Shown piece after piece: positions 24,237 to 63,442 of a DNA stretch of 64,000 bases (position 1 is its first letter; every line of letters starts with the position of its first letter). Both the position numbers and the translations under genes were made by a program. The DNA lies in assembly GCF_018141525.1 (NCBI RefSeq), contig NZ_CP064655.1, positions 2,574,501 through 2,638,500 on the forward strand. Direction: 5' to 3'. This DNA is from Miltoncostaea marina. GTDB lineage: Bacteria > Actinomycetota > Thermoleophilia > Miltoncostaeales > Miltoncostaeaceae. Under the pieces are notes generated by a model. The model was not told the origin of the DNA. It ran no database searches and was given only the letters and a program-made list of their open reading frames with translations.

Positions 24237-24995
24237 TCACCCGCGCGGCAGCCCGGGCGTGGGCCTGGTCGCCGCGGAGACGTCCAATTGGACCTCGGCC
24301 CGAGGTCCAATTGGACCCGTCGCGGCGGAACCGGTCGTCGCGGCCACCGGGCCCGGCTCGCCCATGCGGGCGTCCCAGGCGTCGAGGTCGCGACGGGAGT
24401 GGACGCCGAACTTGCGCAGGATCGACTGCGCGTGCGTCCGGACGGTGTGCCAGGAGACGCCCAGGCGCAGGGCGATCTCCTTGTAGGTGAGCCGCTGGCG
24501 CATGAGCCGCAGCACCACGCGCTCCTGCTCGGTGAGCGTCACCTCGCGGGGGTTGGTGCGGCGGGCGAGGTCGGCCAGCGGGCGCAGCGCCTCGGCGTCG
24601 AAGCGGCCCACGCCGCGCAGGGCGTCGGTGACGGCCTCGACGACCGCCTCGCGCGTCCAGGTGGTCAGCAGCCAGCCGCAGGCGCCCGCGGCGAGCGCCT
24701 CGAGCTGCTGCTCGGGCGAGTCGTCGTCGAGGGCGAACAGCATCCGCGCCCCGGGCAGCCGGCGGCGCACCTCGTCGGCGAGCTCGGCGCCGGGCGCGTC
24801 GGCGAGCAGCCGGCCCACGATGACCAGGTCGGCCGGCGTCGCCAGGCGCGCGAGGGCGCCGTCGACCGTGTGCGCGCCGTCGGTGCACAGCGGCTCGTAG
24901 GCGAGGAACGCCGCCACGCCCGCCGTCCAGGCGGGGCTGCGGTGAGCGATGACGACCCGCACCGGGGCTCCCTGCACGCGCACCCCCCTCTGCAT
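24237..24995 (-). CDS. LuxR/NarL-type regulator with degenerate receiver domain
   Basis: 252 aa. The N-terminal half has the response-regulator fold but lost its active site: VRVVIAHRSPAW where an acidic pair is expected, DLVIVGRLL with Gly in place of the phospho-acceptor Asp, and no conserved Lys after GACGWLL. The C-terminal HTH is intact: LTEQERVVLRLMRQRLTYKE then IALRLGVSWHTVRTHAQSIL. It is probably regulated by something other than phosphorylation. The last about 30 residues (TGPIGPRAEVQLDVSAATRP) are encoded by a dispersed palindromic repeat, so the original stop has probably been lost. Confidence 0.85.
   Translation of the reverse strand: MQRGVRVQGAPVRVVIAHRSPAWTAGVAAFLAYEPLCTDGAHTVDGALARLATPADLVIVGRLLADAPGAELADEVRRRLPGARMLFALDDDSPEQQLEALAAGACGWLLTTWTREAVVEAVTDALRGVGRFDAEALRPLADLARRTNPREVTLTEQERVVLRLMRQRLTYKEIALRLGVSWHTVRTHAQSILRKFGVHSRRDLDAWDARMGEPGPVAATTGSAATGPIGPRAEVQLDVSAATRPTPGLPRG
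24282..24316. repeat. 35-bp palindrome, GTCC-N4-GGAC repeat family member A
   Basis: Two identical GTCCAATTGGAC arms (24282-24293 and 24305-24316) surround CTCGGCCCGAG. The whole 35 bp is a perfect inverted repeat about one central base. It sits inside the 3' end of the LuxR-type gene. Confidence 0.85.
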
Positions 24996-47194: not shown

Positions 47195-47288
47195 ACGCGC
47201 GGCCGGGTCGCGGGGTCGCGGCCGGTGGCCCGATCGCCCCCGGCGCCGTGCCCATCCGGGGCGCCAGGGATCCCGTCGCCGGGTGACG

Positions 47289-47465
47289 CCCAAGTGGACC
47301 TCGGCGCCGGGTCCATTCGGCGCGATCGGCCGCCCCGGGCAGACCGCGGGCACATGTCCAAGTGGACCTCGGCGCCGGGTCCATTCGGGACGACCGGCCG
47401 CCCCGGGGCGCACCGCGGGCCCATGTCCAAGTGGACGTCGGCGCCGGGTCCATTCGGACCATGAC
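47289..47465. repeat. Three tandem copies of a 68-69-bp repeat, family member B
   Basis: Each unit holds CCAAGTGGACCTCGGCGCCG followed by GGTCCATTCGG, then a variable GC-rich middle and ATG. Units begin near 47290, 47358 and 47427 (periods of 68 and 69). The unit itself is conserved, not just a short core, so it is not a CRISPR array. Confidence 0.85.
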
Positions 47466-53181: not shown

Positions 53182-54107
53182 CGCCGCCGCCGGGGCGCAC
53201 GGGCGTCGTCGTGGCATGCGCGCTGGCGGCCGGCGGAGCCGGCGGGCTGCTGCTGGTGGCCACGTCGCTGTGGCAGTCCGGGCCGGCGCGGGCGCCGCTC
53301 CACGTGACCGGGCAGGCCGCGCCGATCACCACGCCGGCCACGGGCCGGCCGGCGCCACCGCCGCCGGGCGTCGGCCGCCCCCCGGCCGACGGGGCGGCGG
53401 ATGCGCCCGTCCCGCCCTCGCCGCCGGCGCGCCCGTCGGCGCCGGTCCGGCCCGCGGCGTCGCGCCCGGTGGCGCGCCGGACGAGCCCTCCGCGAGCGGC
53501 GCCGGCGAGGGGCGGCGCCCCTGTGGTCCGGCCGGTGGGCGCCGTGCGGATCCCGCCCGCCCCGCGGCCCCTGACGCCCGCGCCCGTCGCTCCGGCGCCC
53601 GTGGCCCCGGCGCCGGGCGTCCCCCCCGTCGTCCCGGTGCCCGTGGCCGGGGCGCCCGCGCCCGTCGCGCCCGCTGCCCCGGCGCCGGTGGCGCCCGGGC
53701 CGGTGGCACCGGCGCCGATGACACCGGTGCCCGTGACGCCCGCGCGCCCGGTGCCCGCCGGACGGCCCGCCGGCGGCGGGGCGCCCCTGGCGCCGGAGCC
53801 CGCCATCCCCGTGCCGGATCAGGACGGAGCGCCGGCGCCCGATCCCGGCGGGACGCCCGTCCCGGAGCCGGACGGGAAGCCCGAGCCGGATCCGGACGGG
53901 ACGCCGGTGCCCGATCCCGGCGGGAAGCCCGTCCCGGATCCTGACGGGAAGCCCGAGCCGGTTCCCGGTGGAAAGCAGGAGTCGGATCCGGACGGGAAGC
54001 CCGAGCCGGTTCCCGGTGGGAAGCAGGAGGCGGTCGAGCAGCCGGAGCCGGCCACCGGCCCCGGCGACTGCGGCGTCAGGAGCGGGAGAACGGCAGCACG
54101 GTGGTGA
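53178..54107 (+). CDS. Secreted Pro-rich repeat protein, 309 aa
   Basis: An N-terminal signal or membrane helix (VVACALAAGGAGGLLLVATS) is followed by about 270 residues of Pro/Ala/Val low complexity. The stretch near 213-290 is built of repeats such as DPDGKPEPVPGGKQE. Two copies of 48 bp (from about 53936 and 53984) are nearly identical, so the repeat has expanded recently. It should be a rigid, wall-spanning spacer or surface protein. It overlaps the convergent AIM24 gene by 32 nt. Confidence 0.65.
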   Translation: MTPPPGRTGVVVACALAAGGAGGLLLVATSLWQSGPARAPLHVTGQAAPITTPATGRPAPPPPGVGRPPADGAADAPVPPSPPARPSAPVRPAASRPVARRTSPPRAAPARGGAPVVRPVGAVRIPPAPRPLTPAPVAPAPVAPAPGVPPVVPVPVAGAPAPVAPAAPAPVAPGPVAPAPMTPVPVTPARPVPAGRPAGGGAPLAPEPAIPVPDQDGAPAPDPGGTPVPEPDGKPEPDPDGTPVPDPGGKPVPDPDGKPEPVPGGKQESDPDGKPEPVPGGKQEAVEQPEPATGPGDCGVRSGRTAARW

Positions 54108-55822: not shown

Positions 55823-56668
55823 GTGGCCACCGAACCGCTGCGCGCCCTCGCAGTCGCGCCCGCCCCCGCGGCCGGAGCGGTCCGATTGGACCTCGACCAC
55901 CCGCTCAATCGCGCGATACGGCGCCTCGGGGCGACACGCGTCGCCGAGCACCTGCCCCCGGGGCTGCGCGCCGGAGCGTTCGACGACCACGGCTGGCTGC
56001 GCCGCGAGGACCTGCTCGGCGCGGCGACCCTGGACCTGCTGACGGCCGCCGTCGCCTCCCAGGCCGGCTGCGACGACCCGCGCCTGACCGGCACGCTGCT
56101 GCTGGAGGGCTACGCCTGGCAGCTCGCCGCGCCGGCGCTCGGGCTCCTCCTCGCGGCCGGCCGCCTGCCCGACATCGACCCGGCCACGCTGTACGTCCGC
56201 CTGGCCGACGACGGCCGGGTGGAGGCGCTCGCCTACGCCTCGGGCCGGTTCGCCACGCTGGAGGACGACCCGGAGGCCGGCCACCCGGATGCGACCACGT
56301 TCGCCGACGACCATGCCCTGCTCGCCTGGTTCCGTCGCGCGCTCGTGCGCCATCTCGAGCCGGTCGTCGAGGCCGTCGCCCCGCGCGCCCGCCGCGGCCG
56401 CCGCGCGCTGTGGCGCTCCGTGGAGGACTGCTGCTCGGGCGCGATGACGTGGATCGGCGACGAGCTCGGCGACGGCGACGGCGCGCGGGCCCGCGCGGGG
56501 CTGCTCCTGGGGGTCGAGGAGCCGCTCGGCGACCCGCCGTGCTTCGAGGTCATCGGCGAGGACCCCGGCGCCCCGGTCGTGCGCCGGCGGATCGGCTGCT
56601 GCCAGAGCTTCCGCGCCCCCGGGGGCGCGCTCTGCCCGACCTGCCCCCGCGCCCGCGTGCGCGGGTAG
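55823..56668 (+). CDS. FhuF-like (2Fe-2S) ferric-iron reductase family protein
   Basis: 281 aa, likely a ferric-siderophore reductase. The C-terminal CCQSFRAPGGALCPTC is the FhuF C-C-x10-C-x2-C cluster. The rest is helical (VASQAGCDDPRLTGTLLLEG, DDHALLAWFRRALVRHLEPV and RALWRSVEDCCSGAMTWIGD). GTG 55823 is 8 nt after a TAAGGT box. GTCCGATTGGACCTCG at about 55879-55894, encoding VRLDLD, is identical to the arm of the dispersed palindromic repeat; the N-terminus may have captured one. It is divergent from the C26 gene. Confidence 0.85.
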   Translation: MATEPLRALAVAPAPAAGAVRLDLDHPLNRAIRRLGATRVAEHLPPGLRAGAFDDHGWLRREDLLGAATLDLLTAAVASQAGCDDPRLTGTLLLEGYAWQLAAPALGLLLAAGRLPDIDPATLYVRLADDGRVEALAYASGRFATLEDDPEAGHPDATTFADDHALLAWFRRALVRHLEPVVEAVAPRARRGRRALWRSVEDCCSGAMTWIGDELGDGDGARARAGLLLGVEEPLGDPPCFEVIGEDPGAPVVRRRIGCCQSFRAPGGALCPTCPRARVRG

Positions 56669-56670
56669 AG

Positions 56671-56705
56671 GTCCACTTGGACGGCGGCTCGCCGTCCAAG
56701 TGGAC
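56671..56705. repeat. 35-bp hairpin between convergent genes, repeat family member C
   Basis: GTCCACTTGGACGGCG (56671-56686) and its exact reverse complement (56690-56705) around GCT. It lies precisely in the 39-nt gap between two convergent stop codons and would act as a bidirectional terminator. Confidence 0.8.
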
Positions 56706-58463: not shown

Positions 58464-59030
58464 CGGCCCGCCGGACGCGCGCGGGCCGTCGTCGCCCCCG
58501 GGCGGGCTGCCGCCGCCGGGCGGGCCGGGCCGGCGGGGACCCGGGGGCCCGGGCGGGTCGTCGAGCAGCCAGCGCCCCTCGCGGAACCAGCGGCGCATGG
58601 TGCGCACGCTGGGCGGTCGGGCGGGACCGGCCTCGAGCGAGGCCAGCAGCGACCCGATCACCGCCGCCGGGTGCTCGCCGGCGGCGAAGCGCCGCTCGGC
58701 CTCGGCGCGCAGGGCCGGCCAGGCGTACGAGCCGGGGCGCGGGCGCCCCCGGTCGCCGCGCGACAGCAGGCGCGCCCGGTGCAGGTCGAGCGCCCGGTGG
58801 CGGCGCCGGTCAAGGCAGCCGGCCGCCCCCCAGACCGACATCAGGCTGACCACCAGGTCGCGCCCCACCCGCCGGCGCTGGAAGGCCGCCGAGCGGTGGG
58901 CCGCGCAGAGCCAGACCGACACCCCGGCCGGCAGGTGCAGCTCGGCCCGCGGCCCCTCGCCCGGGCCGGCGCAGATCGCACAGGGCGGCCGGCTGCCGAG
59001 CGAGCGGTCCTTGTAGTAGCTGCGCGCCAT
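58464..59030 (-). CDS. Conserved actinobacterial protein with CxxC; 3' end uncertain
   Basis: From ATG 59030: MARSYYKDRSLGSRPPCAIC, then AELHLPAGVSVWLCAAHRSA, RRRVGRDLVVSLMSVWGAAG, SYAWPALRAEAERRFAAGEH and ARPPSVRTMRRWFREGRWLL. This looks like a genuine family (a CAIC pair, basic helices that could bind DNA). After the Pro/Gly-rich segment (about residue 180) the frame stays open without a stop until 57273, antisense to other genes. The given end is where the convergent gene begins; a lost stop or frameshift is likely. Confidence 0.5.
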
Positions 59031-59117
59031 CGCCGGCCGAGCATCGCCCCGCCCGTCGTCACCGCGAAAGCCCCCGCCCGTGCCCGAAGGCGCACGGCCC
59101 CGCGCCGGCCCACGTCG

Positions 59118-59150
59118 CAATCGGACGCGCGCCCGAGGTCCGATCGGACC
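59118..59150. repeat. Repeat family member D
   Basis: CAATCGGAC on the left and GTCCGATCGGAC on the right, separated by GCGCGCCCGAG; the right arm is a perfect 12-bp palindrome. Confidence 0.6.
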
Positions 59151-59205
59151 GCTTCCCCGCACGAGGGGCGGGCGGGGGCGTCGGCAGCGGCCCTGAGCTC
59201 GGGCG

Positions 59206-59270
59206 TCAAATCGGACGGCGCGCCGGGCCGTGTCGCGATCGGACCACCGCTCGAGGTCCAATCGGACATC
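59206..59270. repeat. Repeat family member E, three arms
   Basis: Arms TCAAATCGGAC, CGCGATCGGAC and GTCCAATCGGAC, with GCTCGAG before the last. The minus-strand copy of the last arm starts ATGTCCGATTGGACC, as in other members. Confidence 0.6.
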
Positions 59271-59432
59271 GACGCGACGGCGGGCGCCCGAGGCGACCCC
59301 CTCGCTGATCGATCCCCGGGGCGGGAGGCCGCGAATGGCAGCGGGCCAACCCCGGGGCGCGAGCGGCGGCGAGCGCGTCGTGTGATGATTCCAGGCCGAC
59401 TCCGTCCACCGAACCGCAGAGGGCATCCACGC

Positions 59433-63331: not shown

Positions 63332-63442
63332 GTCCGATCGGACCTCGGGCCGTGGTCCATTCGGACATTCTGCGGGGGCGCTGAGGCCGGATCGCGACGA
63401 CGAGGTCCGATTGGACCTCAGGCCGTGGTCCATTCGGACATC
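63332..63442. repeat. Two tandem copies (73 bp apart), family member F
   Basis: GTCCGATCGGACCTCGGGCC at 63332 and GTCCGATTGGACCTCAGGCC at 63404, each followed by GTGGTCCATTCGGACAT. The flanking GGCGCTGAGGCCGGATCGCG is also duplicated (about 63304 and 63377). On the minus strand each begins ATGTCCGAATGGACCACGGC. It lies after the kinase gene and before the convergent LacI gene. Confidence 0.8.

Follow-up and report, generated by a model that had tools for sequence, protein, structure and literature searches.

The stretch of DNA analysed here (the window: 64,000 nucleotides, positions 2574501-2638500 of a 3.37 Mb Thermoleophilia chromosome assembled as a single contig, hereafter G000) raises the question of what the short GTCC-N4-GGAC palindromes scattered through it are, and what protein might recognize them. 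A preliminary description had proposed that they form a dispersed family, a claim that would fall if the pattern were limited to the window or occurred at the frequency of shuffled sequence. Neither is the case: in DNA of 77% GC, the window holds 16 copies of the dyad where 3.5 are expected, a number reached in 0 of 100 shuffles, and across G000 the exact pair of dyads occurs 11 times (reversed control 0) and the pair with up to two mismatches 47 times (control 4). The second species of the genus (G001) has 123 GTCC pairs (control 0), and exact pairs number 7 and 5 in two further genomes of the genus (G002 and G003, respectively); among the 57 other genomes tried, one gave a single hit and the rest none. 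The sequences stand where they had first been placed, with small corrections to the coordinates (e.g. locus B comprises three pairs and locus F two), and an ATG before the first arm, which had been reported as frequent, does not characterize the family. The features of the window are as follows, the pairs, the lone arm and the duplicated unit being given without strand:

24282-24316, pair A, GTCCAATTGGAC-ctcggcccgag-GTCCAATTGGAC
47288-47322, pair B1, GCCCAAGTGGAC-N11-GTCCATTCGGCG
47356-47390, pair B2, GTCCAAGTGGAC-N11-GTCCATTCGGGA
47425-47459, pair B3, GTCCAAGTGGAC-N11-GTCCATTCGGAC
55880-55914, pair with a degenerate right arm, GTCCGATTGGAC-N11-GCTCAATCGCGC
56671-56705, pair C, GTCCACTTGGAC-N11-GTCCAAGTGGAC, flanked by convergent genes
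58478-59288, duplicated unit of the gene plus pair D (with pair E in two copies); further copies in G000 at 1085900-1086707 (99% identical) and 681201-681864 (96% identical, over a shorter span)
58560-59030, minus strand, gene for a small protein with a CxxC...CxxH and a predicted helix-turn-helix (P0001; GTCC type), start codon at 59030, conserved domain ending near 58560
59115-59149, pair D, left arm TCGCAATCGGAC; reading on the minus strand GTCCGATCGGAC-N11-GTCCGATTGCGA
59205-59216, lone arm, GTCAAATCGGAC
59233-59267, pair E, TCGCGATCGGAC-N11-GTCCAATCGGAC
63332-63366, pair F1, GTCCGATCGGAC-N11-GTCCATTCGGAC
63405-63439, pair F2, GTCCGATTGGAC-N11-GTCCATTCGGAC

Pair A runs into the 3' end of an ORF (24237-24962, minus strand) predicted to encode a LuxR-type regulator, with a convergent gene adjoining; the array at locus B is also present in the orthologous region of G001, at about 897.8 kb; and pair D lies directly upstream of the P0001 gene, 116 bp separating its first core hexamer from the start codon. 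The repeated unit to which pairs D and E belong measures about 600-800 bp. The window additionally contains an imperfect direct repeat of ~155 bp at 53808-54034 (81% identical, offset 72 bp), and an Rfam search of it recovered RNase P and tRNA only.

In every GTCC-N4-GGAC pair of the window the dyad centres lie exactly 23 bp apart. The shared unit is a 12-bp dyad, consisting of a 4-base half-site, an R-H-D-Y centre (including AATT, ACTT, AAGT, GAAT, ATTC and GATC) and the inverse half-site, while the spacers carry little information relative to the arms. The perfect pairing between the two arms of A and of C, initially put forward as a feature of the family, does not exceed chance: arm-arm complementarity is seen in 8 of 43 pairs of G000 against 6.0 in shuffled pairings, and in 5 of 136 pairs of G001 against 19.7. 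Some isolated pairs (A, C, and those at 609204 and 2423126) do form perfect 16-bp stems; given that complementarity is not above that of the shuffles, we regard the hairpins of A and C as a by-product of the small repertoire of central tetramers. The dyads also form arrays in which 3 to 12 arms follow one another in direct tandem every 23 bp (G000 547240-547487; G001 1627726-1628037 and 2770418-2770613), and both 23-bp and 77-127-bp tandem repeats are seen. A separate 776 bp tandem duplication, 99.5% identical, is present at about 611.0-612.6 kb of G000. By gene calls from a simple codon model written for this analysis, the loci are mostly intergenic; most of them lie at 3' ends or inside genes and avoid promoters, and 14 of the 30 intergenic loci fall between convergent genes as against 74 of 543 background intergenic regions (p 1e-5 by count, 3e-4 by length).

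The suggestion that a cognate DNA-binding protein be sought proved productive, yielding the small gene at 58560-59030 as a candidate, along with paralogs associated with other site types. This gene, its paralogs and the territorial layout described below are the most informative features of the system, and they lie outside the coordinates to which the preliminary description drew attention. The P0001 product displays invariant C17, C20, C42 and H45, followed by a C-terminal helix-turn-helix-like segment of the form PS-x-x-TM-x-RWF, in which the predicted recognition helix reads PSVRTMRRW. As the single-sequence AlphaFold model of the protein is poor (pLDDT 44), the helix-turn-helix assignment rests on this sequence pattern and on a weak similarity to Xis (E about 1). 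No family for it was found among the Pfam, NCBIfam, PHROGs or PADLOC models, and tblastn against 50,697 phage records and 72,556 plasmid records came back empty. Neither a phage- or plasmid-borne family nor a known anti-phage defence system is thereby indicated, and the sole pointers, to Xis-type excisionases, fall below threshold, the match to the Xis family PF07825 scoring 16.7 bits against a cut-off of 23, and the PDB profile matches (E 0.94-1.6) lying below significance.

Matching segments of the gene number 7 in G000, 8 in G001 and 6-8 in G002 and G003, and homologues occur in 15 of 299 Thermoleophilia genomes, spanning 8 of 114 genera. Most members of the class lack it, and any role that it plays is therefore dispensable for the class. 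The CGCC-type gene is found at an orthologous place in G000 and G001, whereas GTCC-type copies come and go. The reading frame of the P0001 gene stays open for 585 codons; more generally, copies in this genus and in genus g7 run for 100 to >500 codons without an in-frame stop past the conserved ...EGRWL, and in the window this extension (58560-57273, minus strand) passes antisense into the convergent neighbour. Copies in family f11 reach a stop codon within 3-11 codons of the same motif. One G000 copy, at 1328989-1329457 (CGCC/GCGC class), is split over two reading frames and represents either a pseudogene or an assembly error. In one genome of family f11 (G194), near-identical copies of the gene are found on contigs C22, C13, C14, C71, C24 and others, several of them at contig ends, as expected of a recently multiplied repeat.

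A pair upstream of the gene is a recurrent feature of the family. Among 40 gene copies surveyed, 30 upstream hexamer pairs were found at a spacing of 23 and 0-4 at any other spacing, with the first core hexamer usually about 110 bp before the start codon; both this position and the 23-bp spacing recur in another bacterial family. For about a third of the 40 copies, mostly outside the genus, neither a 20-bp nor a 23-bp pair was found upstream. In genus g7 (G009 and G018), which has a single gene copy, GTGCAATTGGAC or GCCCAATTGGAC and GTGCAATTGCAC dyads are located upstream, 20 bp apart, and the pattern GTGCAATTGNAC-N8-GTNCAATTGCAC, which this upstream pair predicts to be dispersed, does recur genome-wide, in 21 and 24 copies spread over many contigs (0 for the reversed control in both genomes). 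The half-site in the upstream pair differs between paralogs of the same genome: the G000 copies at 681, 1086 and 2633 kb have GTCC pairs, that at 2058 kb a GCCC pair, that at 1607 kb a CGYC pair and that at 1329 kb a CGCC/GCGC pair. These differences parallel differences in the predicted recognition helix, such that SVRTMRRW goes with GTCC, SRRTMQRW with CGCC (in two species), SRQTMERW with GCCC and SDRTMRRW with GGTC (permutation p 0.0012 over 16 pairs, uncorrected for relatedness). The variable helix positions align with residues 18, 19 and 22 of lambda Xis, in an alignment that is itself not significant. The base contact that matters most in lambda Xis is that of Glu19, with Arg22 in a supporting role (PMC7145599).

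As the half-sites upstream of the paralogs differ, we scanned for any half-site at any spacing, taking in 1.54 Mb of G000, or 46% of it, and selected stretches that make up 19% of the G001 chromosome. This unsupervised scan returned 103 pairs at spacing 23 in G000, versus 0-9 at spacings of 17-22 and 24-29 (under a refined centre rule), and 194 pairs at spacing 23 in G001, versus 0-17 at other spacings. The prediction from the upstream sequences was borne out, in that CGCC and GCCC families were found near their genes within the first 1.2 Mb scanned. The G000 chromosome has at least three site types, namely GTCC, CGCC and GCCC. What had been described as a single palindrome family is indeed dispersed, intergenic and undescribed, but it is one of several site types with a common architecture.

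These types are segregated along the chromosome. Genome-wide, GTCC-type pairs in G000 occur only at 547-1117 and 2386-2638 kb, aside from a few GC-rich matches without AT-rich centres; convincing members of the CGCC type occur only at 1329-1858 kb, with one more at 2385.6 kb; and, within the scanned 46%, the GCCC type lies at 1995-2172 kb. When 36 G000 loci are read in circular order the type changes 3 times, as against a permutation minimum of 10 (0 of 200,000 permutations reach 3). The genes follow the same layout, with the upstream pairs of the G000 copies listed above matching in type the territories in which these copies lie. In G001, the genome-wide search places convincing CGCC members only at 1803-1953 kb, and the CGCC gene (1930 kb) lies among them, while the GGTC gene (1040 kb) lies beside GGTC sites at 1041-1069 kb; GTCC/GGCC sites cover most of the G001 chromosome. 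Where the GCCC and GTCC territories of G000 meet, one region (2385573-2386140) has CGCC, GCCC and GTCC pairs within 600 bp.

The position of the CGCC type can be compared with that of a candidate dif, GCACGGGAACTGATGTTATGTCG, a 22 bp intergenic sequence common to both species amid otherwise diverged DNA (G000 1589950; G001 1951594), which resembles the right arm of the dif consensus (TTATGTC). It coincides in both species with a switch in coding strand and GC skew (near 1.59 Mb in G000). In G000 the candidate lies inside the CGCC territory, which extends from -261 to +268 kb of it, and in G001 it lies at the edge of that territory (about -148 to +2 kb). The outermost G000 sites of any type are found at -1043 and +1048 kb from the candidate, a near-perfect symmetry; as no symmetry about the candidate is seen in G001, we give it no weight. 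A symmetry of zones about the contig start or origin was also considered and rejected, the location of dnaA at position 436 and the strand and skew switch making the candidate dif the better centre for G000, where sites are absent near the origin.

Comparison of the two species provides a view of how long these sites persist. Arrays are present at orthologous gene junctions in G001 for ten G000 loci, a count helped by the choice of G001 stretches, although the neighbouring proteins are only about 54-93% identical; in the contiguous stretch at 1860-1980 kb, 4 of 6 CGCC loci coincide between the species (p 0.00017). At 1767 kb the sites follow the same gene in both species, but they are of the CGCC type in G000 and the GTCC/GGCC type in G001. 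At two orthologous array loci the gene is present in one species only: the array at 1116.8 kb of G000 is without a gene, its orthologous array in G001 (2522 kb) has one, and the reverse holds at 1086 kb.

At the level of sequence, we regard the site families, their fixed spacing, the territories, the link between gene and site type, and the retention at orthologous junctions as established. Together they suggest that these small proteins are probably a previously unnamed family of DNA-binding proteins, with the paired palindromes as their binding sites. That each paralog binds its own site type, with one dimer per 12-bp dyad, appears highly probable. In the mechanism that we propose, these lineage-specific Zn-ribbon/helix-turn-helix proteins would bind dispersed pairs in a 23-bp register and would have diversified into paralogs with differing recognition helices. 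The matching pair upstream of each paralog's own gene would probably be autoregulatory, and the dispersed sites of each paralog would populate one territory around its gene, with the CGCC paralog marking the terminus region and the GTCC and GCCC paralogs marking the flanking regions. Taken as a whole, an explanation in terms of paralogous DNA-binding proteins that mark chromosome territories is the one that we consider somewhat probable on these data. As to the purpose of such marking, we hypothesize, with a confidence that falls a little short of even, that it might serve chromosome organization or segregation in the manner of MatP/matS, with different regions bearing different protein labels. 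In its most specific form, the chromosome would be divided among the set of paralogs, each region having its own palindrome type and cognate paralog, with the terminus type at dif and the others flanking it; changes in the helix would diversify specificity, and sites would switch type when a boundary moves. We offer this detailed picture more tentatively still. An organizational role is held to be the likeliest because the sites avoid promoters, are long retained, can change type in place and are grouped into territories, of which the terminus type is conserved.

The main rival is selfish or mobile DNA, in which the gene and its upstream pair constitute a minimal element, and the solo arrays are left near their source by local hopping, recombination and slippage; the territories would then be a footprint of local spread combined with symmetric inversions, devoid of host function. 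We rank it so on account of the duplication of the gene units and the lack of the system in most relatives, and the three gene-plus-pair units of G000 (96-99% identical), the many copies at contig ends in G194, the occurrence of the gene at only one of two orthologous array loci, and the tandem repeats of both size classes are all in its favour. However, it is the dyads that are common to the sites and not the spacers or flanks, the protein has no transposase motif, many occupied junctions have been kept between species whose proteins there have diverged considerably, and copying alone does not readily explain how the sites at a conserved junction came to differ in type. On balance, we consider selfish spread by itself unlikely, and mixed histories of organization and selfish spread are possible. 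A second alternative is that the arrays are transcription-factor operators or roadblocks, which regulate their neighbours or stop transcription at 3' ends, the territories reflecting gene dosage or the locality of regulators. The pair at a fixed distance upstream of most gene copies is as expected for autoregulation, and the excess of loci between convergent genes would suit a roadblock. Nevertheless, the preponderance of loci at 3' ends or within genes, rather than at promoters, is against it, neighbour regulation alone leaves the territories unexplained, and several specificities would be needless for a roadblock, making this alternative quite improbable. Finally, the pairs might be hairpins at the RNA level or REP/BIME-like elements that terminate transcription or stabilize mRNA and are mobilized by a RAYT. 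This would account for the perfect stems of some isolated pairs and for loci near convergent 3' ends, but is largely refuted, and hardly credible, given the arm-arm complementarity at shuffled levels, the direct 23-bp arrays of identical arms, the same fixed spacing upstream of the genes and the absence of any Y1 transposase from the four members of the genus that were searched.

If confirmed, the marking of territories by paralogous DNA-binding proteins would amount to a naturally occurring multi-colour label for chromosome regions, would allow the co-evolution of DNA-binding specificity with hundreds of sites to be studied, and would give access to how chromosome domains are specified outside Proteobacteria. 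Even under selfish spread, there would remain an unnamed protein and palindrome family with an unusually clear record of local spread. In the open-licence literature we found no account of repeats of this kind in Thermoleophilia, nor of paralogous binding proteins that are each specific to a territory. Markers of chromosome domains that consist of one protein, such as MatP/matS, are known, but no other set of paralogs is known to us whose members each have a site type and a chromosomal stretch of their own. A pattern search of GTDB species genomes recovered, outside the genus, only sporadic and apparently unrelated palindromes with a 23-bp period. In the Spirochaetaceae genome JAIRNN Cd354_bin30 they are GTCCCCACGGAC-type palindromes within a 23-bp minisatellite that is found across many contigs; in Acidovorax soli and IMG/VR viral contigs they are TGTCCCTTGGGACA palindromes in sets of two or three, spaced for the most part by 23 bp, and are possibly phage operators.

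Several known systems bear comparison with these pairs and proteins. The predicted recognition helix is weakly similar to that of lambda Xis (PPSVRTMRRW versus PRSLETVRRW; E about 1, not significant), but these proteins differ from Xis in their additional CxxC...CxxH region and dispersed chromosomal sites. REP/BIME elements are short dispersed intergenic palindromes, often paired and often downstream of genes (PMC3733652), and the present pairs resemble them in being dispersed, intergenic and often near 3' ends. Unlike the GTAG and CGTC families of REP/BIME, however, the elements here are built of 12-bp dyads that recur every 23 bp, and arm-arm pairing does not exceed the shuffled level. A constant GTAG tag is absent from all listed pairs, and the CGTC/CGCC half-site is one variable class and not a common tag. 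The comparison with REP/BIME and RAYT that had been suggested thus ended in rejection of that identity: the Y1 transposase domain (PF01797) has no match in G000-G003, with 5 control genomes positive, and the arms show no pairing signal. The Neisseria dRS3 repeat, ATTCCC-N8-GGGAAT, has a variable centre, and to our knowledge it has a single site type, no linked paralogous binding protein and no territories; the Thermoleophilia pairs differ from it in their 12-bp dyads, 23-bp register and several types. Like them, dRS3/NIME form intergenic arrays of short palindromes, in large clusters (PMC3733652).

The nucleoid occlusion proteins SlmA and Noc have dispersed sites with an uneven ori-ter distribution and an exclusion around the terminus (PMC4786541). 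The sites described here are likewise dispersed and unevenly distributed along the ori-ter axis; in SlmA/Noc, however, a single protein has sites excluded from ter, whereas here there are several paralogs with mutually exclusive zones, and in G000 it is the vicinity of the origin that lacks sites. MatP, for its part, is a ribbon-helix-helix protein with one specificity serving one domain. The linked protein of the present system does not qualify as a MatP homologue, having a CxxC...CxxH and helix-turn-helix pattern with no Pfam or NCBIfam family, and the system further departs from MatP in its several specificities and territories borne by Zn-ribbon/helix-turn-helix paralogs, its tandem 23-bp arrays and the upstream pair at the gene. 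In E. coli, MatP is a sequence-specific protein whose more than 20 dispersed matS sites are confined to the terminus region (PMC12756933, PMC4786541). Like matS, the CGCC type is confined to the terminus region, where it surrounds or adjoins the sequence-based candidate dif.
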